Assembly (NCBI RefSeq): GCF_028606985.1
Contig: NZ_CP117416.1
Location: 4,713,001 to 4,777,000, forward strand
Length of the DNA stretch: 64,000 bases
Reading direction: 5' to 3'
Origin: Paenibacillus kyungheensis
Lineage (GTDB): Bacteria > Bacillota > Bacilli > Paenibacillales > Paenibacillaceae
The position numbers and the translations under genes are program-made. Below the pieces are notes generated by a model. It was not told the origin of the DNA. It made no database searches and saw nothing but the letters and a program-made list of their open reading frames with translations. Shown in pieces: positions 26,584-40,083 of this stretch (positions are counted from its first letter, which is position 1; every line of letters starts with the position of its first letter).

Positions 26584-27162
26584 TTATACAGGTAAGCCGT
26601 AGTTCTGACACAATGCAGCTAACCCACCTGAGAATCCACTACCGATCGCCTGGAACTTCCAATCCGTGCCTTGACGGTAAAATTCACAGAATACGACTGC
26701 TGTTTCGGTAGAGAACTCTTCGCCTAGATCGAAGCGCAAAATTTCACTGCTATTATCTTCATTTACTACACGTACAAAAGCAGCACTTACCTGTCCAAAA
26801 TTCTGTCCACGTGCGTCTGCATCATGGATTGTTACTGTGATACCTATACGTGAAATGCTAGCAGGAACTTTGCTGAAATCGACAACGATCTGCTCGTCAT
26901 CTCCATCGCCTTCACCTGTACGATTATCTCCAGTATGCGTCACCGCGCCATTATATGTGGTCAGATTGTTGTAAAATACAAAATCTGCTTCTGTTTTGGC
27001 TTTGCCATCTTCATGCAATAAAAATGCAGAAGCATCCAAGTCAAAATCACTACCACCGCTGTATTTATTAGTATCCCAGCCTAGACCTACCACAACTCGT
27101 GTTAATCCCGGGTTTGTTTTCGTGAGGTCGATACGTTGCCCCTTGGATAAATTAATCGTCAT
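26584..27162 (-). CDS. terD: TerD family protein (third copy)
   Basis: 192-residue calcium-binding beta-sandwich stress protein. The full TerD pattern is present: [66 protein letters not shown], and [38 protein letters not shown]. The aspartates of DNRTG...GDGDDE bind calcium in this family. The ATG at 27162 is set by AAGGAG; the longer frame lacks support. Cytosolic, thought to assemble near membranes during stress. Confidence 0.95.
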
Positions 27163-27250
27163 CCTCTGTTCACTCCTTACCATCACTATATTTTGGTGAT
27201 ACCTATAACACTGAAACAAAACGGAGCTATGCGCTCCGCTTTGTTTACCA

Positions 27251-27440
27251 CTTATTGTAAGATATTTTACTTTGCAAAAATCATTTTCTTATTGAACCTT
27301 GTCGCGTTTATGTTGCCAAACGCTTATTGTAAGATATTTTGCTTTGCAAAAATCATTTTTTTATTGAAACTTGTCGCACTTATAATGCCAAGTGTTTGGT
27401 CGCGTTTATGTTGCTAAACGCTAATGCCAAATGCTTATTG
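27251..27440. repeat. Tandem 72-bp direct repeat between terD genes
   Basis: Two imperfect copies with a 72-base period begin at 27251 and 27323 (both start CTTATTGTAAGATATTTT), and the last third recurs at 27399-27421 (TCGCGTTTATGTTGC). Short units related to GCCAAACGC are repeated further. It holds no open frame of note. It lies in the gap between the second and third terD genes. Confidence 0.8.
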
Positions 27441-28010
27441 CAAGCCGTAGTCGCGTGTCAAACCTGCAAGACCATCTTTGTAACCATTACCGATCGCGTT
27501 AAATTTCCACTCAGCGCCATGACGGTACAATTCGCCTACAACTACACCTGCTTCGATAGAGAAATCTTCTCCTAGATCGAAACGGATCAATTCTTCGTTG
27601 TTATCATCGTTTACGATACGAACGTAAGCGTTAGATACTTGACCGAAGTTTTGGTTACGAGCTGCTGCTTCATAGATTGTAATTGTAAATGCAATTTTGT
27701 CTACATCAGCAGGTACGTTAGGGATGTCTACTTTGATTTGCTCATCGTCGCCATCGCCTGCGCCTGTACGGTTGTCGCCTGTATGTACGACAGAACCATT
27801 TTCATTTTGAGGATTGTTGAAGAAAATAAAGTTTTTTTCGCTAGCTACTTTACCTTCAGCATTCGCGCAAAATACAGATACGTCCAAATCGAACTCTCCG
27901 CCGCCATCATATTTATTTGTATCCCAGCCTAGACCTACTGTGATTTTAGATAATCCTGGATTACTTTTCGTCAAATCTACTTTTTGTCCTTTAGATAAGT
28001 TAATTCCCAT
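27435..28010 (-). CDS. terD: TerD family protein (second copy)
   Basis: 191-residue TerD protein, close to the third copy but more conventional: [92 protein letters not shown], and a terminal [19 protein letters not shown]. All calcium-site aspartates are kept. The ATG at 28010 follows AAGGAA. Likely co-transcribed with terB and the first terD. Confidence 0.95.
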
Positions 28011-28100
28011 GTTCAATTCCTTCTTTCCATGTGTATGATTTGAGTTGCTGAATAACGTATAATTGACTCTTTTTCATTGTTAGAAGATAACGCTTACCGA

Positions 28101-28700
28101 TTATGAATATTGGCGAGCCAAAATATCGATATGCGCAGCCTGTTTTCCTTGACCAATTGCGTTAAATTTCCATTCTGATCCATTACGGTAGATTTCACCT
28201 GTAATCAATGCCGTCATACCGGAATAATCATCTGTTAGATTAAAGCGAACCAATTCCTGTTGATTCTGTCCATTTACAATACGAATGTATGCAGACGAAA
28301 TCATACCGAAATCTTGTTTGCGTTGTTCTGCTTGATAAATATTAACCACAACGAGCACTTTATGCACATCAGCAGGTACTTTAGAAAGATCGATATGGAT
28401 TTGCTCATCGTCTCCTGCACCTTCGCCTGTGAGGTTATCCCCGCTGTGTTTGACAGAACCGCAACCACTAGTCAAGTTATGAAAGCAGACCAAATTTGTA
28501 GCTTTGGTCAATTTATCATTTGCGTCCAAAAGAATCGCTGAAGCATCACAGTCGATATCTGCTTTGGCTTTTTTCATACCGAAGAATCCTTTAGATTGTG
28601 TCTCCGCGGGATCCCAACCCAAACCAACCACCAGTTGATTCAGACCGCTATTGCCTTTGGTTAAATCAATTTTTTGACCTTTGACTAAGCTGATACTCAT
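28101..28700 (-). CDS. terD: TerD family protein (first copy)
   Basis: 199-residue TerD protein with an eight-residue basic insertion (SKGFFGMKKAKAD) after the first strand pair, as in the TerE/YceC-like branch. The core motifs remain: KGQKIDLTKGNSGLNQLVVGLGWD, DIDCDASAILL, SVKHSGDNLTGEGAGDDEQIHIDLSKVP. The second aspartate cluster reads GAGDDE rather than GDGDDE. AAAGGAGG lies upstream, with a slightly long spacer. It is directly downstream of terB. Confidence 0.93.
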   Translation of the reverse strand: MSISLVKGQKIDLTKGNSGLNQLVVGLGWDPAETQSKGFFGMKKAKADIDCDASAILLDANDKLTKATNLVCFHNLTSGCGSVKHSGDNLTGEGAGDDEQIHIDLSKVPADVHKVLVVVNIYQAEQRKQDFGMISSAYIRIVNGQNQQELVRFNLTDDYSGMTALITGEIYRNGSEWKFNAIGQGKQAAHIDILARQYS

Positions 28701-29923: not shown

Positions 29924-30052
29924 TCATAAGCCTCCATATTAGAGATATAAAATAACAACCTATAGAATATAACACAAAAATATCCAATATAAACCATTTT
30001 CGCGATGTTTTTTTGGGAATATTTTGAAATTATAATAAATGATCAATAAACG

Positions 30053-30095
30053 CCAGAAAAGAGCGTGATCTGTAGGCGATCATGCTCTTTTCTGG
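30053..30095. other. Orphan perfect stem-loop
   Basis: An 18-bp perfect stem (CCAGAAAAGAGCRTGATC arms at 30053-30070 and 30078-30095) with a seven-base loop. Neither side has a strong T run and no recognised gene ends here on either strand. Confidence 0.7.
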
Positions 30096-30120
30096 TCTTC
30101 TCTATTCATTTAGGGAATGT

Positions 30121-30504
30121 TGGGTGTTCTATGATATAAACTAATTTACTACTTATGTGGTATGTTGCTAAAGAATTCTTCGGACTCACTACGTTTACTT
30201 GCTAGAGTGTTTCTATTTATTTCCATATTTCTATAGGACAGCTATTTACATCTACAAGCTACTTTACTATTGGGTATTACTATAAAGCTTATAAGCTATT
30301 GGTATATAGGATTGTAGTGAGATCCTGCCAGCCAACATTTGTACTTCTACGTGTCCGTTTATATGACAGTAGTGAAGTAACTTGTATCTTTATTATTACA
30401 GGAGTTTTCAAAAAACGGATTCTTTTATTTTGTAATCACAACCTTTTTTTGTAATACGTGAGTGTTTACTCCCAAATTGTATAGGTCAATAGAACCCTTA
30501 TACT
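30121..30504. other. AT-rich intergenic region before the receptor array
   Basis: No supported gene. It contains AAGTAACTT (30375-30383), an extra copy of one arm of the inverted repeat located further downstream, and several short palindromes such as TATAAGCTTATA-like sequence near 30280. Confidence 0.5.
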
Positions 30505-30553
30505 AAGTTACTAAAAAAGCTACTCTGACATTTTAAGTAACTTATAGAATAAT
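30505..30553 (+). promoter_or_regulatory. Putative promoter and inverted repeat of the first receptor gene
   Basis: CTGACA (30525-30530) and AATAAT (30548-30553) have a 17-base spacer. Arms AAGTTACT (30505-30512) and AGTAACTT (30536-30543) form an inverted repeat around the -35 box, a possible binding site for a receptor. Confidence 0.4.
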
Positions 30554-30616
30554 AAAAACTATCATTTTCTGGAATCGTATAAGGAATATTGTATTTTTCG
30601 GAGGTGCTTACCGTTT

Positions 30617-31942
30617 ATGAGCACACTGGATACAGTCCGCTCTCATATTGAGCAAGAACTGCAACGCAGACAAATCAATTTAACACAGTTTGAAAAGATA
30701 TCTGGTATTAATCGTGGAGTACTCAGTGCAACGCTCAACAGCAATCCACCTCGATCGATATCGATCAACCAGCTAGATCGTATGGCTGCCGCTCTCGATC
30801 GACCGGAAGGCTGGTTATATGAACAATATATAGAAGAATGTTTTGCAAGCAGCAAAGTCAACTGGCGACGTATTCGTGCTTTATTTCTGCGCTGTATTGA
30901 ATTAGATCGAAACGTTTTGATTGAATACACATTAAATTTGCTGATGGAAGATTATCGGTATGTCCCTCATGTGTTTGATTTAGCAGAAGAATTGGTGCTT
31001 AACGGTCAATTGGAACAAAGTGTTCCTTTCTATACCTGTGTGATCGAAAACGAACGTCAGCAACATGCAGAGCGTCTAGCGATCAGCCAATACCGGCTAT
31101 TTCGTGCTCAATTGAGTGAAGATATAGAACGTAACAAATCAGCAGTAACTTTGTTCTATCCTTATCGTGATCGCATCCCTGATCATTTGCGATTAGATGC
31201 TTTATTACAAATGGCAAATGTATATTACACCGTACAGGAATGGGATCTGATGGAACAAGTAACAGATGAAATGAGCGTATTGGTTCATCGGGTGTACGAG
31301 GAAGAATGCAAAAAAATGGATCGGCAAGGTGCGGATTATGTCCCCCTGTCAACCGAAAGACATTTGGTCTGGTATTACGGACAAAGTTACTTAATAAAAT
31401 CCATTTTTTTCGAATATACAGGTAAATATAAAGAAGGCTTAAAGTACATTGATGGTTATAAAGATTTGAGTTGGTTCAAATCCCTGAATGAAGTTGGACA
31501 TCTTGAAGTTCATAAATTAAAAATAGCAGCTGAAGCCAATCTATATAATTTACAGCTAATGCTTGGCAATACAGAATGCTTAGAAAATTATATTACTTTT
31601 TTAAAAGAAAATCCGTTTGAACAATTACCTAGTTTATTAACTATTTTAAAAGCCGCTAATATTAATCATTTTTGTATCGATTCTGTTCTTAATACATTTA
31701 TAGCTCATCCTGATAATAATATTAAATTTGAAATTGGCTATTACAAAAATAGCATTACTTTTAATACAATGCTGACTGATTTTTACTACCAATTAGCCAT
31801 TTATCAAGCTAAAAGAGGCTATCCTCTGGAAGAATTTAAAAATACATTGAATACATTTGATATGTCATTACGTAGATACAATATGAGTCGTACTATGGAC
31901 TATACGTCTTTGATACAGCATTTTATTCGTTCAATGCCTTAA
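30617..31942 (+). CDS. aloR: AloR-like peptide receptor (HTH plus TPR), first of array
   Basis: 441-residue intracellular regulator of the RRNPP type. Residues about 7-60 form an XRE-like HTH (LTQFEKISGINRGVLSATLNSNPPRSISINQLDRMAAAL); then NWRRIRALFLRCIELDRN begins a long helical, TPR-like peptide-binding region that runs to the end (YYQLAIYQAKRG, then DYTSLIQHFIRSMP). GGAGGTG lies ten bases upstream. It is followed after 24 bases by a paralogue and has no pro-peptide gene of its own. It should bind a re-imported signal peptide and control transcription. Confidence 0.85.
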   Translation: MSTLDTVRSHIEQELQRRQINLTQFEKISGINRGVLSATLNSNPPRSISINQLDRMAAALDRPEGWLYEQYIEECFASSKVNWRRIRALFLRCIELDRNVLIEYTLNLLMEDYRYVPHVFDLAEELVLNGQLEQSVPFYTCVIENERQQHAERLAISQYRLFRAQLSEDIERNKSAVTLFYPYRDRIPDHLRLDALLQMANVYYTVQEWDLMEQVTDEMSVLVHRVYEEECKKMDRQGADYVPLSTERHLVWYYGQSYLIKSIFFEYTGKYKEGLKYIDGYKDLSWFKSLNEVGHLEVHKLKIAAEANLYNLQLMLGNTECLENYITFLKENPFEQLPSLLTILKAANINHFCIDSVLNTFIAHPDNNIKFEIGYYKNSITFNTMLTDFYYQLAIYQAKRGYPLEEFKNTLNTFDMSLRRYNMSRTMDYTSLIQHFIRSMP

Positions 31943-31966
31943 TACAACAGTCAAGAGGTGATCTGT

Positions 31967-33262
31967 ATGGACAACCGAATAGCCTTATGTACGGAGTTAG
32001 AAAATGAGATTTCTAAGCAAGGTTATTCTCTTAGTCGTTTCAGTCAAATCTCTGGAATCAATCGTGGCATTTTAAGTGCCACTTTGAACGGAAATCCTCC
32101 CAAACCTATGTCAATTAATCAACTAGATACGATGACCACTGCTCTGGGGAAGCCAGAAGGTTGGCTATATGAACGGTTTGCAGAACAATGCTTTGACGAA
32201 CAAGGTAAAACCAATTGGCGTCGTGTTAGAGCGCTTCTTCTGCGTTGTATTGAACTAAATCGAAACGTTTTGATTGAGCGTATTTTATGTTTGTTGCTTG
32301 AAGATATATCGTACTTAAATCAAGTGTTTGAACTGGCGGAAGAACTAATTGCAGACAATCCGAGTGAGAGTGTTATGCAGTTGTATGAATGCGTGGTGAG
32401 TAATGAACGCAATTACCAAGCAGAACGGCTTGCGATCAGTCATTATCGCATTTTCCGCTATGCGATTAAGCGAGATATTAAGCAAAATTTTATAGCCGCT
32501 GTCACTTTCCAACCTTTTTGCGAGCGTTTGCCTCAAGATATACAGTTAGATGCTTGGTTAAATCTTTCTAATATCTATTATGCTGTTCAGGAATGGAAAT
32601 TAGTTAATAACTGTGGAAACCAGCTCATCTCTATTACTGAAAATATTTATTCTCAACAAAAACATAAAGATATAACTAGTGAACGTCCATTCGTGAAATA
32701 TGTTGGACAAGCTTACCTTTGTAAAGCAATTTTTCATCAAAAGAATGGAAATTATGATAAAGCAATAATTTATACCCAAAAATATTCAGACCTAGAATGG
32801 CTATCTGATCTAGAAGTAGAAGATAAAAAAGAAATAGAAAAATTTAAAATATTTGCTAAAGGTAATCTTTACGGTATTGAATTATATAGAGGTAATTTCA
32901 ATGTACTTAAAGAATATGCCAAATTTCTAGAAGTACATCCACATGAAACTATGGCAGGATTGCTTAATATTTTAACTACAGCAAATCAATATAATGTATG
33001 TATAGACTATGTTTTAAAAAAATTCAGACCTTTTATACTAAAAAATTTATACAACGATACGTATATCAAAAGATTTATTGTAGATAATCAATATACAAAT
33101 CTTTGTTACCAGCTTGCACTATATCAATCTAAAAGAAGTAATCATTCTAAAGATTTAAAAAGTACCCTTTTACTTTTTGAGAAGGCTGTTCAGAAATGTA
33201 ATATTAGTCTGACCTTAGACTATACCTCTTTACTTCAAAATGTCATTCGTTCCATGCCTTAA
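31967..33262 (+). CDS. aloR: AloR-like peptide receptor, second of array
   Basis: 431 residues. The HTH is nearly identical to its neighbours (SLSRFSQISGINRGILSATLNGNPPKPMSINQLDTMTTAL), with GWLYERFAEQCF and NWRRVRALLLRCIELNRNVLIERIL following. The C-terminal TPR-like half is much more diverged and visibly AT-rich. The ATG at 31967 is set by GAGGTGA; an upstream in-frame GTG lies in that site. Closely linked to the preceding and following receptors, so probably one transcript. No pro-peptide frame is found at its 3' end. Confidence 0.83.
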   Translation: MDNRIALCTELENEISKQGYSLSRFSQISGINRGILSATLNGNPPKPMSINQLDTMTTALGKPEGWLYERFAEQCFDEQGKTNWRRVRALLLRCIELNRNVLIERILCLLLEDISYLNQVFELAEELIADNPSESVMQLYECVVSNERNYQAERLAISHYRIFRYAIKRDIKQNFIAAVTFQPFCERLPQDIQLDAWLNLSNIYYAVQEWKLVNNCGNQLISITENIYSQQKHKDITSERPFVKYVGQAYLCKAIFHQKNGNYDKAIIYTQKYSDLEWLSDLEVEDKKEIEKFKIFAKGNLYGIELYRGNFNVLKEYAKFLEVHPHETMAGLLNILTTANQYNVCIDYVLKKFRPFILKNLYNDTYIKRFIVDNQYTNLCYQLALYQSKRSNHSKDLKSTLLLFEKAVQKCNISLTLDYTSLLQNVIRSMP

Positions 33263-33288
33263 AAATACCCTACATCGAGGTGATCTGC

Positions 33289-34650
33289 ATGAAACATCGA
33301 ATAACCCTAATTACTGAACTAGAGTCCGAAATGCATAAGCAGGGTTATTCGCTTAGTCATTTTAGTAAAGTTTCTGGAATCAATCGGGGGATTTTGAGTG
33401 CTACATTGAACGGAAATCCTCCCAAACTCATGTCTATTACTCAATTGGATACTATGGTTAAAGCTCTTGGCAAACCTGAAAGCTGGCTATATGAATTATT
33501 TATAGAACAGTGCTTCTCAGAAGAAAACAAAGCCAATTGGCGACGTGTTCGTGCGCTGTTGCTTCGTTGCATAGAACTTAATCGTGATGATCTTATTGGC
33601 GATATTTTAAATTTGCTGATGGAAGATCCTATTCATGTCGCTCATGTATTTAATCTAGCAGAAGAATTAGTGGAGCAAAACCAAGCGATTGTCGCTATGC
33701 CTTTTTATGAATGCGTTATTGAAAATGAACGTAATTATCATTCTGAGCGATTAGCCATCAGTCATTATCGACTATTTAGAGCCAGGATTAGTCCAATTAT
33801 TGAGAATAATCTTAGACTTGCGATGGTATTTCATCCTTTCCGTAATCGCTTACCCGATCATTTTCGGCTGGAAGCCCTATTAGAATTAGCTAATATCTAT
33901 TACACGGTGCAGGACTGGAATATGGTTATAGCCTGTTCAGACGAACTGAATATATTATCTAATATCATTTATAAACAAGACTGTAAAAGAAGAAAAAAGA
34001 AAATAGCTGTGTCGACACCTAGCTTCACAAGACCTCTTGTTACTTATTATGCTCAAAGTCATCTGATGAAATTTGTAGCCTTAGAACATATGGAAAAGTA
34101 CGATGAAGCTCGCCCTTATTTAAAAGAGTTCTCGGATTTAAGTTGGTTTGAAGGTCTAGATGATCTAGGAAAAGAACATGTCGAAAAATTTAAAATCTAT
34201 GCGTTGTTTAATGAATTGAATTTAGAATTGTTAACTGGACATACAGACAAATTGGTAGATTATTTTGAATTATTAAAAACTCATCCCGGCGAAGCGTTAC
34301 CAAGCTTGCTGATTATTTCAAAAGCAGCCAACAAATATGATATGAAGATTGACCATATTCTTACGTATTTTGACGATATTATTTATCCGAACGATATTTT
34401 GGATTATATTCACCAAGCTAGATTTCTACGAGACCACTATAAAAATATTCCTATTGGAATTAGTCGTTATATTAATATTTACTATCAATTGGCTCTTTAT
34501 CAATGTAATCGTAACGTCTATGATGAAAAGCTCGAAAAAATTCTATTGGCTTTGGAAACATCTGTAGAGAAATACAATCGTGGACGTATTATGGATTGTC
34601 TGGAGTTATTTAAAAAGTTACGCGAGATGCCTAGAGAACATAAAGACTAA
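33289..34650 (+). CDS. aloR: AloR-like peptide receptor, third of array
   Basis: 453 residues, HTH SLSHFSKVSGINRGILSATLNGNPPKLMSITQLDTMVKAL, linker SWLYELFIEQCF, then helical repeats. The C-terminus shares with the fourth copy the block YYQLALYQCNRNVYDEKLEKILLALE ... RIMDCLELFKKLR, which replaces the MDYTSLIQHFIRSMP end of the first two copies. So the array contains two C-terminal types. The ATG at 33289 follows GAGGTGA, 26 bases after the previous stop. No adjacent pro-peptide was seen. Confidence 0.83.
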   Translation: MKHRITLITELESEMHKQGYSLSHFSKVSGINRGILSATLNGNPPKLMSITQLDTMVKALGKPESWLYELFIEQCFSEENKANWRRVRALLLRCIELNRDDLIGDILNLLMEDPIHVAHVFNLAEELVEQNQAIVAMPFYECVIENERNYHSERLAISHYRLFRARISPIIENNLRLAMVFHPFRNRLPDHFRLEALLELANIYYTVQDWNMVIACSDELNILSNIIYKQDCKRRKKKIAVSTPSFTRPLVTYYAQSHLMKFVALEHMEKYDEARPYLKEFSDLSWFEGLDDLGKEHVEKFKIYALFNELNLELLTGHTDKLVDYFELLKTHPGEALPSLLIISKAANKYDMKIDHILTYFDDIIYPNDILDYIHQARFLRDHYKNIPIGISRYINIYYQLALYQCNRNVYDEKLEKILLALETSVEKYNRGRIMDCLELFKKLREMPREHKD

Positions 34651-34711
34651 TCGACACATCATGCTAACTATTTAACTTCATATGGCTCACACATAAACAG
34701 AGGTGAAATCG

Positions 34712-36040
34712 ATGAATCATCGAATAACTGTACGGGATGAATTAGAAAAAGAGATTACTGTTCAAGGACATTCTCTTAGCCATTTTAGCAAGATATCAGG
34801 GATCAATCGGGGGATATTAAGCGCTACGTTGAACGGTAACCCTCCTAAGCCAATATCAATCAAACAGTTAGATCAAATGACTCATGCTTTAGGAAAAAAA
34901 GAAGGCTGGTTGTACGAGCAATTCATGAATGAATGTTTCGAGGATGGTAAAGCCAATTGGCGACGTGTTCGGTCTTTGCTAGTTCGTTGCGTAGAGTTGG
35001 GAAATCAACTATTAATTGCACAAACCCTACATCTTTTAATGGAAGACATTTCATATCTTACAAACATATTTGAATTTGCAGAAGATTTAACTCAAGAAGG
35101 AAAAACATTATCTGCGCTATCCTTTTACCAATGTATTATAGAACATGAACGACAATCGTATAGTGAAAGAATGGCGATTAGTCATTATCGTATATTTAGA
35201 CAATCAATTAATAAAGATATTGAGAATAATTTACTTTTGGCTATACAATTTAGTCCTTATCGTGACAAGCTTCCTCTAGCTTTGACAATAGATGCGCTAT
35301 TACAACTTATTATTATTTGTTACGGTACTCAAGATTGGATACTAGGTGAACAATATGCTGATGAATTAATTTATTTAATCCAAATCACAATCGAACAACA
35401 AAAAAAGAAAAATACTTTCAACTCTTTAGATACTCCACTTACTTTAGTCTATTATTATGCTCATTCGTATTCTATGAAATTTGTTGCCAAAGAGTATACA
35501 GCAAAATATGATGAAGCCCTTCTATGTATAGATAAATTTGCTGATTTAAGTTGGTTTCCAGGGCTAGATGAAGCAGGTCTTCATGAAGTAGAGCGATTTA
35601 AGCTGTTCGCTATTTTCAATAGACATAATATTGAATTATTACAAGGAGACTTCTCAAGATTAGATCAATATATTGAGTTGACGGAGCAACATCCTAAGGA
35701 AATGCTAGCAAGCTTGCATATGGCACTCAAAGCCGCAAATATGCATAATTATGATGTTGATTTGGTCATTAATAAATTTAGCAATATTATTTATCCAGAT
35801 GATTTGATTCAATATATTAATGAACATACTGAATATACAGAACAGACAGGAGTTAGTCGTTATATTAATCTTTATTACCAACTAGCACTTTATCAATGCA
35901 ATAAAGGAACGTATGACGATAAGCTTGAAAAGATTCTGCTAGCCTTAGAATCGACTGTAACCAAATATAATAAAAGTCGAATATTAGATTGTCTTGAACT
36001 ATTTAAAAAGCTTCGACTGATTTCTAAAAATGGAAACTGA
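34712..36040 (+). CDS. aloR: AloR-like peptide receptor, fourth of array
   Basis: 442 residues with the conserved HTH (SLSHFSKISGINRGILSATLNGNPPKPISIKQLDQMTHAL), GWLYEQFMNECFEDGKANWRRVRSLLVRCVELGN, and a C-terminus closely related to the third copy (YYQLALYQCNKGTYDDKLEKILLALE). The ATG at 34712 is set by GAGGTGA. A terminator follows at 36051-36095, so copies one to four form one unit separate from the fifth. A short frame overlapping its stop codon has no signal sequence and is not a pro-peptide. Confidence 0.83.
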   Translation: MNHRITVRDELEKEITVQGHSLSHFSKISGINRGILSATLNGNPPKPISIKQLDQMTHALGKKEGWLYEQFMNECFEDGKANWRRVRSLLVRCVELGNQLLIAQTLHLLMEDISYLTNIFEFAEDLTQEGKTLSALSFYQCIIEHERQSYSERMAISHYRIFRQSINKDIENNLLLAIQFSPYRDKLPLALTIDALLQLIIICYGTQDWILGEQYADELIYLIQITIEQQKKKNTFNSLDTPLTLVYYYAHSYSMKFVAKEYTAKYDEALLCIDKFADLSWFPGLDEAGLHEVERFKLFAIFNRHNIELLQGDFSRLDQYIELTEQHPKEMLASLHMALKAANMHNYDVDLVINKFSNIIYPDDLIQYINEHTEYTEQTGVSRYINLYYQLALYQCNKGTYDDKLEKILLALESTVTKYNKSRILDCLELFKKLRLISKNGN

Positions 36041-36050
36041 GTACCCAATA

Positions 36051-36096
36051 AGGCATAGAAACCATAACTTCCCTTGTATGGTAACTATGTCTTTTG
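36051..36096 (+). terminator. Terminator after the fourth receptor gene
   Basis: GGCATAG-AA-ACCATA pairs with TATGGT-AA-CTATGTC across a ten-base loop, then TTTTG. Confidence 0.7.
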
Positions 36097-36131
36097 TGAT
36101 TCCTAAATTTTGAAGATTTGATTAAAAGTAA

Positions 36132-36161
36132 TTGACCCCTGTTCAAAGCGTAATGTATAAT
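36132..36161 (+). promoter_or_regulatory. Promoter of the fifth receptor and peptide genes
   Basis: TTGACC (36132-36137) and an extended -10 TGTATAAT (TATAAT 36156-36161) are spaced by 18 bases; strong vegetative-type promoter. Confidence 0.7.
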
Positions 36162-36237
36162 GTAATAAATTTGAATTTCATGGGCTTACTGGGGCGCAAC
36201 AACGGGAAACTTTCAACATAAAGGGGTGTGTTCGGTT

Positions 36238-37650
36238 ATGATTACCAACACCACAACCATACGGCTTGAGATTGAAAAAGGAATTCGACAAAAAGGACAT
36301 TCATTAAGCAGCTTCGGTAAACAGGCTGGAATCAACCGCGGGATCATCAGCGGAATCTTAAATGGTAATCCTCCAAAATCGATTTCTATTCGGCAGTTAG
36401 ACTTAATGGCAGAAGCTTTGGGTCATGCAGAAGGCTGGATGTATGAGTATTATGTGGACGAATGTTTTATTAATGAAAAAGCAGACTGGCGTCGGATAAA
36501 GGCATTTTTATTACGCTGTACAGAGATTGGTCGGTACGATTGTATTCAAGAAGTTCTTGATCGTCTGATGGAGGATTTGAATAATACAATATCGATCTTT
36601 GGATTGGCAGAGGAACTATATGCTGAAGGTAAGGTACAAGAGTCGTTGCCCTTTTATGAATGTGTAATTGAGAACGAAAAGCATCAACATTCTGAGCGAC
36701 TAGCTATTGCACATTATCGTGTTTTTAGAGCTTCCATTGGTGACAATACGGAGAAAAACTTTAGAGCGGCTATACGCTTTGAAACATTTCGTGATCGACT
36801 ACCCGAGAATTTTATGCTTGATGGTCTTTTAGCATTATCAAATATTTACTATGTGCTACAAGATTGGAATATAGTGGAAAAATGCGCTGATGAGTTAATA
36901 TCTATTATACAAACTATTTACAAAAATGAAGAAAAGAAAATGGAAGAGAGTAATAATTATACTGCTTTGGATACAGAGAGACCCTTAGTATTTTATTACG
37001 GGCAATCTTATCTTATTAAAGGAGTAGCATTAGAACACAAAGGCAAGTATGAAGAATCTAAAACTTATATTCATAAATATATGGATTTAAGTTGGTTTAA
37101 AGGATTAGATGATGCTGGACAAGAAGAAATTAAAAGGTTATCTCATTATGCAACTGCTAATATGTACTTAGTTGAAGTATTAATGGGAAATACAGATGTA
37201 TTACCTGCTTATGTGAATTTCTTAGAAAAACATCCTGCTGAAATCTTACCGGCAATGTTCATTATTTTAAAAGCTGCTAATATGCATGGATTTGATGTAG
37301 ATAATCTTCTGGTTAAATTTGAATCTTTTTTGGAATATGATGAGTCTTCAGAAAACCATTATAGTAAAGTAGCTGTCATTAATAGATATGTCAATTTTCA
37401 TTATCAATTAGCTATCTATTCCGCTAAAAAGAACTTGTATAGTGATTGCATTAGTAATCTATTGAAAAGTTTAAATTTAGCAATCAAAATATCAAGTAAA
37501 AATAAAATTTTAGATGTCATAGCCTTTATAGAACAAATTAAAACTTTTGCATCAGAGACTCAGTTATTTGAGTACGAGTCCCTTTTAAAAGGAGTTGGTA
37601 CAGATGAAAAAATCTATGATTTTGCTAACTTTATTTCTAGGGCTAATTAA
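36238..37650 (+). CDS. aloR: AloR-like peptide receptor linked to two pro-peptide genes
   Basis: 470 residues. The HTH (SLSSFGKQAGINRGIISGILNGNPPKSISIRQLDLMAEAL) has diverged from the other four; GWMYEYYVDECF and NWRR-like DWRRIKAFLLRCTEIGR follow. It has its own promoter. The C-terminus is about 25 residues longer (IEQIKTFASETQLFEYESLLKGVGTDEKIYDFANFISRAN), and its last 47 bases overlap the first pro-peptide gene in another frame. The ATG at 36238 follows GGGGTG. Linkage to two secreted pro-peptides marks it as the receptor of a peptide quorum-sensing pair like AloR/AloP of Paenibacillus polymyxa. Confidence 0.87.
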   Translation: MITNTTTIRLEIEKGIRQKGHSLSSFGKQAGINRGIISGILNGNPPKSISIRQLDLMAEALGHAEGWMYEYYVDECFINEKADWRRIKAFLLRCTEIGRYDCIQEVLDRLMEDLNNTISIFGLAEELYAEGKVQESLPFYECVIENEKHQHSERLAIAHYRVFRASIGDNTEKNFRAAIRFETFRDRLPENFMLDGLLALSNIYYVLQDWNIVEKCADELISIIQTIYKNEEKKMEESNNYTALDTERPLVFYYGQSYLIKGVALEHKGKYEESKTYIHKYMDLSWFKGLDDAGQEEIKRLSHYATANMYLVEVLMGNTDVLPAYVNFLEKHPAEILPAMFIILKAANMHGFDVDNLLVKFESFLEYDESSENHYSKVAVINRYVNFHYQLAIYSAKKNLYSDCISNLLKSLNLAIKISSKNKILDVIAFIEQIKTFASETQLFEYESLLKGVGTDEKIYDFANFISRAN

Positions 37651-37723
37651 TATTGCTTCCCCACTTTCAGATGTGCGAATGCCTATCCAAGTTTTAGAAC
37701 ACGGAATAGGTATAAAAAAATAA
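37604..37723 (+). CDS. aloP: AloP-like secreted pro-peptide 1 (39 residues)
   Basis: Tiny gene: ATG ten bases after AAAGGAG, overlapping the receptor's 3' end by 47 bases in another frame. MKKS plus a hydrophobic core (MILLTLFLGLINIASP) is an export signal; the mature part ends VLEHGIGIKK. The core LEHGIG matches LEHGMG of the next gene, and HG-G endings are, as I recall, typical of Alo signal peptides. It carries an extra IKK after the shared core, so processing may need trimming, or it may be a diverged or decoy copy. Confidence 0.75.
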   Translation: MKKSMILLTLFLGLINIASPLSDVRMPIQVLEHGIGIKK

Positions 37724-37746
37724 TTATTTTAAAGGAGAACTTATTA

Positions 37747-37860
37747 ATGAAAAAACTTCTATTTACACTTACTTTATGCTTGAGTCTATCTGGTCTTATC
37801 TTTACTTCTTTGCCTGCTTCTACTGGTTCAATTACAACCTTAGAACATGGAATGGGTTAA
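37747..37860 (+). CDS. aloP: AloP-like secreted pro-peptide 2 (37 residues)
   Basis: ATG nine bases after AAAGGAG, 37 codons, ending directly in TAA and followed by a terminator. MKKLL with a hydrophobic core (FTLTLCLSLSGLIFTSLPA) is a clear Sec signal with an Ala/Ser cleavage region; the remainder STGSITTLEHGMG holds the probable signal peptide at the extreme C-terminus. Expected path: export, proteolytic release of about six residues, re-import by an oligopeptide permease and binding to the TPR domain of the adjacent receptor. Confidence 0.82.
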   Translation: MKKLLFTLTLCLSLSGLIFTSLPASTGSITTLEHGMG

Positions 37861-37871
37861 TAAAGAATAAA

Positions 37872-37903
37872 AAAACAACCTCTTTAAAGAGGTTGTTTTT
37901 TTT
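37872..37903 (+). terminator. Intrinsic terminator of the receptor-peptide operon
   Basis: AACAACCTCTT / AAGAGGTTGTT with a short loop and TTTTTTTT; it also lies opposite the end of the convergent ABC-F gene. Confidence 0.9.
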
Positions 37904-39818
37904 ATAATTCCATCCAGTTTTTATAATATTGTTCTAACTTTTTCTCAATTTCGCTCTCTTTTATGTTGATTATCCTCAATTCTTTTTCATTTTGATAATA
38001 CTCTAATAAAGCTTTTCGCTTGATTTCCTCTAATTCATTCTCTAATTTAAGAATATCTTCCTCTAATTGATCTTTTACATTTATTAGTTCTATATTTTGA
38101 ATCACTTTTGAAATTCGACTATTGCGTTTATTCTCGTTAGAGGATGTTTTAATTTCCTGATTTGATAATAGGAAATTATTAATTTTCTTCTCCTTCCACT
38201 CTCTCCAATCCTCATAATTCCCCATATTCACACTCAACATCCCACCATCCAGACTCCAAATCTGCCCTGCTATCCGATTAATAAAGTATCGATCATGTGA
38301 TACAGTCAGTATCGTTCCTGGAAATTCTTCTAATGCTTCTTCCAGTGCTTCTCTGGCGGAAATGTCCAGATGGTTGGTCGGTTCATCCAGAATCAGCAGA
38401 TTCGGGCGTTCGTGCATAAGGATCGCTAGGCGGAGACGACTCCATTCGCCACCGGATAGACCAGAGACTTTTTTGAATACGTCTGATCCGTAAAATAAGA
38501 ACTTCGCTAACTGTCCTCTCGCTTCGCCTTCTTCCATCTTCGCTGCCAGCTTGAACCATTGTAGTACCGTTTCTCCCAGATCTGGTGGAGCGGCTTCTTG
38601 TGCCAGATAGCCTACTTCGGTACGTGAACCTAGCGTGAGTGTGCCACTGTCGATCGGTTCTTGTTGTAAGATCATGCGCAATAAGGTTGTTTTTCCTGCT
38701 CCATTGCCACCAATAATCGCTGCATTTTCTCCATAACGTAATAGCGCAGAGGCTTGATCTAGCAGTACTTTCTCTCCATACCGCTTATCCACCTGATCCA
38801 GAACCAATACACGATCTCCCGAACGATCTTTTTGCTTCAAATCCAGCTCCATCTGTGCGCGATCCATAATCGGACGTTTGACTTTTTCCATCCGATCTAA
38901 TGCTTTCTGCATTGAAGCGGCTTTGCGGTGGAACGATGGGTTAGGCGGATTGGAGCGATTACCCCACTCGATTAGACGTTTGATTGATTCTTTAATCCGC
39001 TTAATCTCTTTTTGTTGGTCTTTGTAATCTTCGAATTGTCTGACCAGACGACGCTGTTTCTCGTCTCGATACGCAGAATAGCTCATCGGGTAAGTGGTGG
39101 CTTCTCCGTCCTCTAGTTCTACAATCTGATGGACGACTTTATCCAAAAAGTAACGGTCATGCGAAATCACGATCACTGTCGCTGGCGATTGACTGATAAA
39201 TTGCTCCAACCAGACCACTGCATCCATATCCAGATGGTTGGTCGGTTCATCTAATAATAAGATATCTGGATCGGTCAGCAACAATCTTGCCAGACCGACT
39301 TTGGTCTTTTCTCCACCGGACAATCCTTCGAACAAGCGATCATAATGTTCAGCAGGAATCCCTAGTCCACTAGCAATTCGATCGATTGTAGCAGACATTT
39401 CATAACCACCACCACGCTCGAATGTATCCAGTGCTTCCCCATACTGCTGAAGCACACGTTGCATCTGGTTCTCATCCAGATGTTCGTCTGCCATCTGTAT
39501 ACTTAACTGCTCCATTCGTTCTTGTAATTGGGTCAAATGGGCAAAGCTTTCTTGCAACACTTCCAAAATCGTAATATGTGGATCATATACAGGCATCTGT
39601 TGTAAATACCCGACTCTGGAACCTTTTTGAATATGAACTTCGCCTTGAAACGGTTTGTCTTGACCGGATAAAATACGGAATAATGTGGTTTTGCCTGCTC
39701 CATTCATTCCGATTAACCCGACTTTGGCTCCACTATGAATTTCAAAAGTAACTTCGGTTAATACATGCTCGGCACCATAATATTGTTGAACCTGCTGACA
39801 GGCGATCATAATAGACAT
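37902..39818 (-). CDS. ABC-F family ATPase (ribosomal protection type)
   Basis: 638 residues, no membrane segments, two ABC domains: Walker A GMNGAGKTT and GGNGAGKTT, signatures LSGGEKTK and LSGGEWSRL, Walker B ILLLDEPTNHLD and LLILDEPTNHLD. The inter-domain linker (about 240-320, with KRLIEWGNRSNPPNPSFHRKAASMQKALDRMEKVKRP) is long, as in proteins that remove antibiotics from the ribosome, and a charged coiled coil forms the C-terminus. The ATG at 39818 is set by GAGGAGA; the frame continues upstream through a terminator hairpin and is not translated as such. A leader ORF and attenuator precede it, suggesting drug-inducible expression. Confidence 0.9.
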   Translation of the reverse strand: MSIMIACQQVQQYYGAEHVLTEVTFEIHSGAKVGLIGMNGAGKTTLFRILSGQDKPFQGEVHIQKGSRVGYLQQMPVYDPHITILEVLQESFAHLTQLQERMEQLSIQMADEHLDENQMQRVLQQYGEALDTFERGGGYEMSATIDRIASGLGIPAEHYDRLFEGLSGGEKTKVGLARLLLTDPDILLLDEPTNHLDMDAVVWLEQFISQSPATVIVISHDRYFLDKVVHQIVELEDGEATTYPMSYSAYRDEKQRRLVRQFEDYKDQQKEIKRIKESIKRLIEWGNRSNPPNPSFHRKAASMQKALDRMEKVKRPIMDRAQMELDLKQKDRSGDRVLVLDQVDKRYGEKVLLDQASALLRYGENAAIIGGNGAGKTTLLRMILQQEPIDSGTLTLGSRTEVGYLAQEAAPPDLGETVLQWFKLAAKMEEGEARGQLAKFLFYGSDVFKKVSGLSGGEWSRLRLAILMHERPNLLILDEPTNHLDISAREALEEALEEFPGTILTVSHDRYFINRIAGQIWSLDGGMLSVNMGNYEDWREWKEKKINNFLLSNQEIKTSSNENKRNSRISKVIQNIELINVKDQLEEDILKLENELEEIKRKALLEYYQNEKELRIINIKESEIEKKLEQYYKNWMEL

Positions 39819-39899
39819 ATTGTTCATTCTCCTCTGAGTGTATAAAGTAGAGGGAAATGCGCTTCTGCCTTGCGATCTCATCTGTGTGCGTAGTATAAA

Positions 39900-39935
39900 A
39901 AAGCACAAAAAAGCCGCAGGGAAATGTCCCTGCGA
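39900..39935 (-). terminator. Attenuator-type terminator upstream of the ABC-F gene
   Basis: On the minus strand CGCAGGGA-CATT-TCCCTGCG is followed by TTTTTTGTGCTTTTTT, about 80 bases before the ABC-F start. It lies inside the leader and would stop transcription before the gene unless an alternative fold forms. Confidence 0.8.
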
Positions 39936-40083
39936 CTTCTCTGTTTTTGCTTGCATCAGAGCAGACGCTTTATATGCCAGCAGGTATAGAGTGTTACATG
40001 TGGCTTGCTAAGAAGTACGAATTGACTGATCGGAATAGCTTTCCGTTGCACCGATTCATCGTAGCTTCGTTTCTTGTACAAGC

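Follow-up and report, generated by a model that had tools for sequence, protein, structure and literature searches.

Two putative AloP-type propeptide genes behind one AloR-type receptor in Paenibacillus kyungheensis and P. nuruki

The closest described system is Alo13 of Paenibacillus polymyxa, whose mature peptide is the six-residue SHGRGG (Voichek et al. 2020, PMC7425212). AloP13 reduces the transcription of spo0E, and cross-regulation among Alo systems was reported in the same work (PMC7425212). Going by the gene names used in that paper, one Alo system of P. polymyxa has two propeptide genes, aloP10-alpha and aloP10-beta (PMC7425212). For the Rap receptors, two neighboring propeptide genes were reported for 71 proteins, with the two mature peptides differing, at one position, in 58 of the 71 cases (PMC9765709), and several active peptides were shown to arise from propeptides in which the pheromone is repeated (Phr3T/Phr105; PMC11343458).

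The locus described here was found in a 64-kb window of the P. kyungheensis genome (the whole stretch of DNA that was analyzed, numbered from its first nucleotide) and consists of a receptor gene, R5, followed by two short ORFs, ORF1 and ORF2. It resembles the Rap two-propeptide cases and Phr3T/Phr105 in that the pheromone is doubled for one RRNPP receptor, and it resembles aloP10-alpha/aloP10-beta, as these are named, in having two propeptide genes for one Alo receptor. The Rap cases differ from it both in receptor family and in peptide sequence.

The receptor and its relation to Alo13

R5 (36226..37650, plus strand) was called as an ORF of 474 codons, starting at a GTG at 36226 or an ATG at 36238, and is an AloR-type RRNPP protein with a Cro/C1-type HTH and a TPR superhelix. 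As in AloR, the HTH is at the N terminus and is accompanied by a TPR domain; this was read from the AF2 model, which is all-helical with a pLDDT of 88, and from TPR matches, the Pfam matches to HTH_3 and TPR_2 in the profile search being weak and below the curated cut-off. The best structural alignments of the model were to NprR with NprX, NprR apo, and RapI, at a Z of about 16, a level nearly reached by unrelated TPR proteins, and values of 13-16 do not single out one kind of TPR protein. A sequence search of solved structures with R5 found no RRNPP receptor, and the RRNPP likeness among solved structures came from the fold comparison only.

Homology to AloR was found in the polymyxa-type genomes G299, G304, and G306, where the best matches to R5, receptors that carry AloP13, were 46-47% identical over nearly the full length. 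Directly behind these matches lies a peptide ending in TVSSHGRGG, followed by a spo0E-like ORF, and the synthetic AloP13 propeptide of PMC7425212 is found within the G304 peptide without a single difference. In a tree of 68 receptors, R5 grouped with six orthologues of the same genus (support 100/99) and not with the AloR13 rows; the deeper forks were weak. As R5 falls in a different clade from AloR13 in this tree, the unit is assigned to the Alo systems but not to Alo13 itself. The two systems share an HTH-TPR receptor, a short propeptide gene that overlaps the receptor gene and has a signal-like start, an [H/N]GxG core, and tandem peptide-less AloR paralogy upstream. They differ in that Alo13 has one peptide and a spo0E-like target directly downstream, whereas the R5 unit has two peptides and no spo0E-like gene in that position. 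The R5 unit is followed by a convergent gene for an ABC-F ATPase (37902-39956), and no target gene was found adjoining the unit.

Among the R5 orthologues, identity was 88-98% over residues 1-200 and 36-66% beyond, with a sharp step near residue 200. An unchanging DNA site combined with a drifting peptide specificity would produce such a step; the DNA-binding half appears to be held constant and the peptide-binding half to be changing.

The two propeptide ORFs and their conservation

Translation of ORF1 (37604..37723, plus strand, 39 amino acids, ending LEHGIGIKK) gives MKKSMILLTLFLGLINIASPLSDVRMPIQVLEHGIGIKK, and that of ORF2 (37747..37860, plus strand, 37 amino acids, ending TTLEHGMG), the extra copy, gives MKKLLFTLTLCLSLSGLIFTSLPASTGSITTLEHGMG; both start with ATG. 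The initial annotation had proposed these as propeptide genes of 39 and 37 codons following a receptor gene, and much of its description agreed with the data. An AAAGGAG-type ribosome site precedes each (aaaaggag and aaaggag, respectively), and the first gene starts inside R5 in another frame (37604, with the R5 stop at 37648-37650). The proposed export signals correspond to predicted, signal-like hydrophobic N termini in both ORFs, judged from a hydropathy scan with maxima of 2.6-2.9 for the 39-residue ORF1 and 2.2-2.4 for the 37-residue ORF2. The shared ending LEHGIG or LEHGMG was found for ORF2 but not for ORF1, which reads LEHGIG-IKK. The added claim that standard callers would miss genes of this size is open to doubt, since common gene callers accept genes of 90 nt.

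Both ORFs have the features by which an AloP is recognized, being ORFs of 32-50 amino acids downstream of or overlapping the receptor gene, with a hydrophobic N-terminal helix. The AloP reading is further supported by the other-frame overlap and by the C-terminal [H/N]GxG core, which on comparison with related genomes was shared with AloP13 and many other AloPs; the ends LEHGIGY, VLEHGMGF, and GLEHGGGY were observed behind AloR homologues of other genera. The two ORFs are also related to each other, as judged from their alignment (z about 6.5). No NCBIfam or Pfam family names either propeptide, and matches to frog skin peptides and lipoprotein sites were rejected as weak signal-sequence resemblance below the cut-off.

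When the peptides were aligned on AloP13 and on the other ends, the six-residue register fell on EHGIGI (then KK) in ORF1 and on EHGMG in ORF2. In this register, the ORF1 hexapeptide would be EHGIGI rather than LEHGIG, and ORF2 ends one residue short of it; alternatively, the ORF2 peptide can be read as LEHGMG.

That one or both ORFs might be chance open frames without a product was considered, as short ORFs are commonplace and part of the conservation of ORF1 is borrowed from R5 through the overlap. Against this, only ORF1 and ORF2 have an HGxG end among the 14 ORFs with a ribosome site and a hydrophobic start on both strands of the window, and an HGxG-ended ORF of this type arose in none of 5,000 dinucleotide shuffles of 37601-37900. 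Together with the family-wide occurrence of the motif at the same place behind AloR homologues and the substitution pattern described below, these data make the chance reading scarcely credible.

In P. nuruki (genome G010, locus L048), both propeptide ORFs are present behind a receptor that is 97% identical to R5. Between the two species, ORF2 has 7 synonymous and 3 amino acid changes (pS 0.25, pN 0.04; Fisher p=0.002), and all of its changes are nonsynonymous when reread in the other two frames. ORF1 as a whole, with 4 synonymous and 7 amino acid changes, was not significant (p=0.27), owing to a rapidly changing middle, while its last 12 codons, IKK included, have 2 synonymous changes and no amino acid change. 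When the tails beyond the R5 end were pooled (the last 12 codons of ORF1 and the last 18 of ORF2), 6 synonymous changes and no amino acid change were counted (p about 1e-4), and both tails therefore look selected as protein, in what is one pairwise comparison since two species only carry the pair.

Origin of the second propeptide and doubling elsewhere

Five more distant orthologous loci in the genus (P. wulumuqiensis, G002, G008, P. dauci, and P. hunanensis) have receptors 62-72% identical to R5 and one peptide ORF each; ORF2 is absent at all five of these loci. The same convergent ABC-F gene adjoins all five, and the single peptide ORF overlaps the receptor gene with a start offset the same or nearly the same as that of ORF1. 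Among these single peptides, those of P. wulumuqiensis and G002 aligned best with ORF1 (z about 9). Because these more distant orthologues have one peptide ORF, ORF2 was probably gained in the lineage of P. kyungheensis and P. nuruki, and probably by duplication; alternatively, it may have been imported from a different AloP, or the other species may have lost it.

In the one-peptide orthologues, the HGxG core is followed by one residue and then a stop (GF-stop, GG-stop, or GA-stop), whereas ORF1 at the same place reads G-I-K-K-stop. The IKK tail could have arisen from a single stop codon change, AAA for TAA, and looks like the trace of a lost stop, the end of propeptide 2 being clean. It may be that only propeptide 2 is active and that propeptide 1 is the decaying original, replaced by its duplicate. 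The lack of an excess of synonymous change over the whole of ORF1 fits such decay. However, its last 12 codons encode the same residues in P. nuruki although the DNA has two synonymous differences there, and residues after the core also occur in other AloPs, such as SHGLGGWALSSPEPSA. We regard loss of function in propeptide 1 as unlikely, though a serious possibility.

A pair of separate propeptide ORFs, both having AloP-type ends, was found at 3 of about 200 AloR 3' ends, namely, in this genome, in P. nuruki, and behind one G304 receptor (L176). The view that two peptides per receptor are less usual is consistent with this count, and the arrangement itself was already known from aloP10-alpha/beta (PMC7425212) and Rap (PMC9765709). 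The G304 peptides end in YDQHGGA and FATHGGA, unlike ORF1 and ORF2, and are probably the pair named aloP10-alpha/aloP10-beta. Because a close relative of the second G304 peptide has its own receptor in G306, receptor loss rather than peptide duplication is suggested for this pair. The ORF1/ORF2 pair is a lineage-specific doubling of a kind already on record in the Alo family.

Cores were also observed twice within one AloP-type propeptide (GHGNG, SNGSGG, and NNHGAN) at L085 (G295), L098 (G013), L101 (G006), L102 (G014), L146 (G306), and L168 (G299). The G295 propeptide contains the repeat GHGNGNYSTYGHGNGH, and SNGSGG occurs twice inside one propeptide in G006, G013, and G014.

Transcription unit, upstream receptors, and proposed signaling

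A candidate sigma-A-like promoter of the R5-propeptide unit, TTGACC-18-TATAAT, is located at 36132..36161 on the plus strand and agrees with the consensus at 11 of 12 positions, although shuffled sequence contains as many promoter-like sites in total as the region does. Promoter and leader (36132-36237; ACTGGGGCGCAACA..ACGGGAAACTTT..AAAGGGGTGTGTTCGG) are near-identical at seven orthologous loci, one per species, and the DNA further upstream is not. The conserved leader, defined as 36170-36237, was considered as a known riboswitch, a candidate rejected as no Rfam match was found in 30000-39000. Its motif gives no readable regulon because it occurs once in the whole genome. A terminator-like hairpin at 37869..37902 (plus strand; -17.3 kcal/mol, z -5.7), reported on the minus strand by the pattern scan, is placed to close the unit and is common to the convergent ABC-F gene.

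Directly upstream of R5 are four tandem AloR paralogues (30617-31942, 31967-33262, 33289-34650, and 34712-36040, plus strand), recovered in an own-genome search at 40-45% identity. They form a clade separate from R5 in the receptor tree, and a short-ORF scan found no recognizable peptide ORF behind any of them. The array is spaced closely, as if one operon, and P. nuruki, P. wulumuqiensis, and P. dauci have comparable runs of peptide-less receptors upstream. The P. kyungheensis genome contains one more AloR-type gene, the sixth (L006, G000:C1:303883-305286), with a single TGA in the region of alignment; its peptide ORF ends in PLIHGTDY. Upstream of the array, proteins resembling TerD stress proteins of the tellurite-resistance type, as judged by eye from the sequence, are encoded one after another at 26584-28700 on the minus strand.

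We consider it probable that the locus is an AloR-AloP quorum-sensing unit with a doubled propeptide gene, whose products would be exported, processed, reimported, and bound by R5. In the proposed sequence of events, the promoter near 36132 would give rise to a single mRNA for R5 and both propeptides, and the propeptides would be exported through their signal-like N termini and cleaved outside the cell to C-terminal peptides of about six residues on EHG(I/M)G. These would be taken up again by an oligopeptide permease and, inside the cell, would bind the TPR half of R5 and change the DNA binding of the HTH. Both peptides would act on the same receptor, the pair mainly increasing the signal dose, or one serving as backup to the other.

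The peptides might instead have separate receptors, one addressing R5 and the second at least one of the upstream paralogues. The four tandem receptors without a peptide gene and the cross-regulation on record (PMC7425212) would fit this arrangement. Apart from the tail, however, the cores of ORF1 and ORF2 differ at a single residue, and since peptide-less paralogues also occur upstream in one-peptide relatives, a second peptide is not needed for these to exist; a division of the peptides between receptors is accordingly judged improbable. A more speculative extension of the doubled AloR-AloP unit, to which we give rather little weight, is that a change of code is under way: the original peptide, having lost its stop, would now carry a tail, a second copy almost identical in its core would have become fixed next to it, and R5 would read both, with the four neighboring receptors possibly listening in and the DNA-binding half almost unchanged across species.

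The locus adds a clear case of pheromone gene doubling in the Alo family, with two sister species having two peptides and five relatives having one, in which dose, redundancy, or a change of specificity would be testable with a few synthetic peptides. The near-fixed DNA-binding half and the fast-changing peptide-binding half of the receptor may also make the system useful for studying the joint change of signal and receptor.
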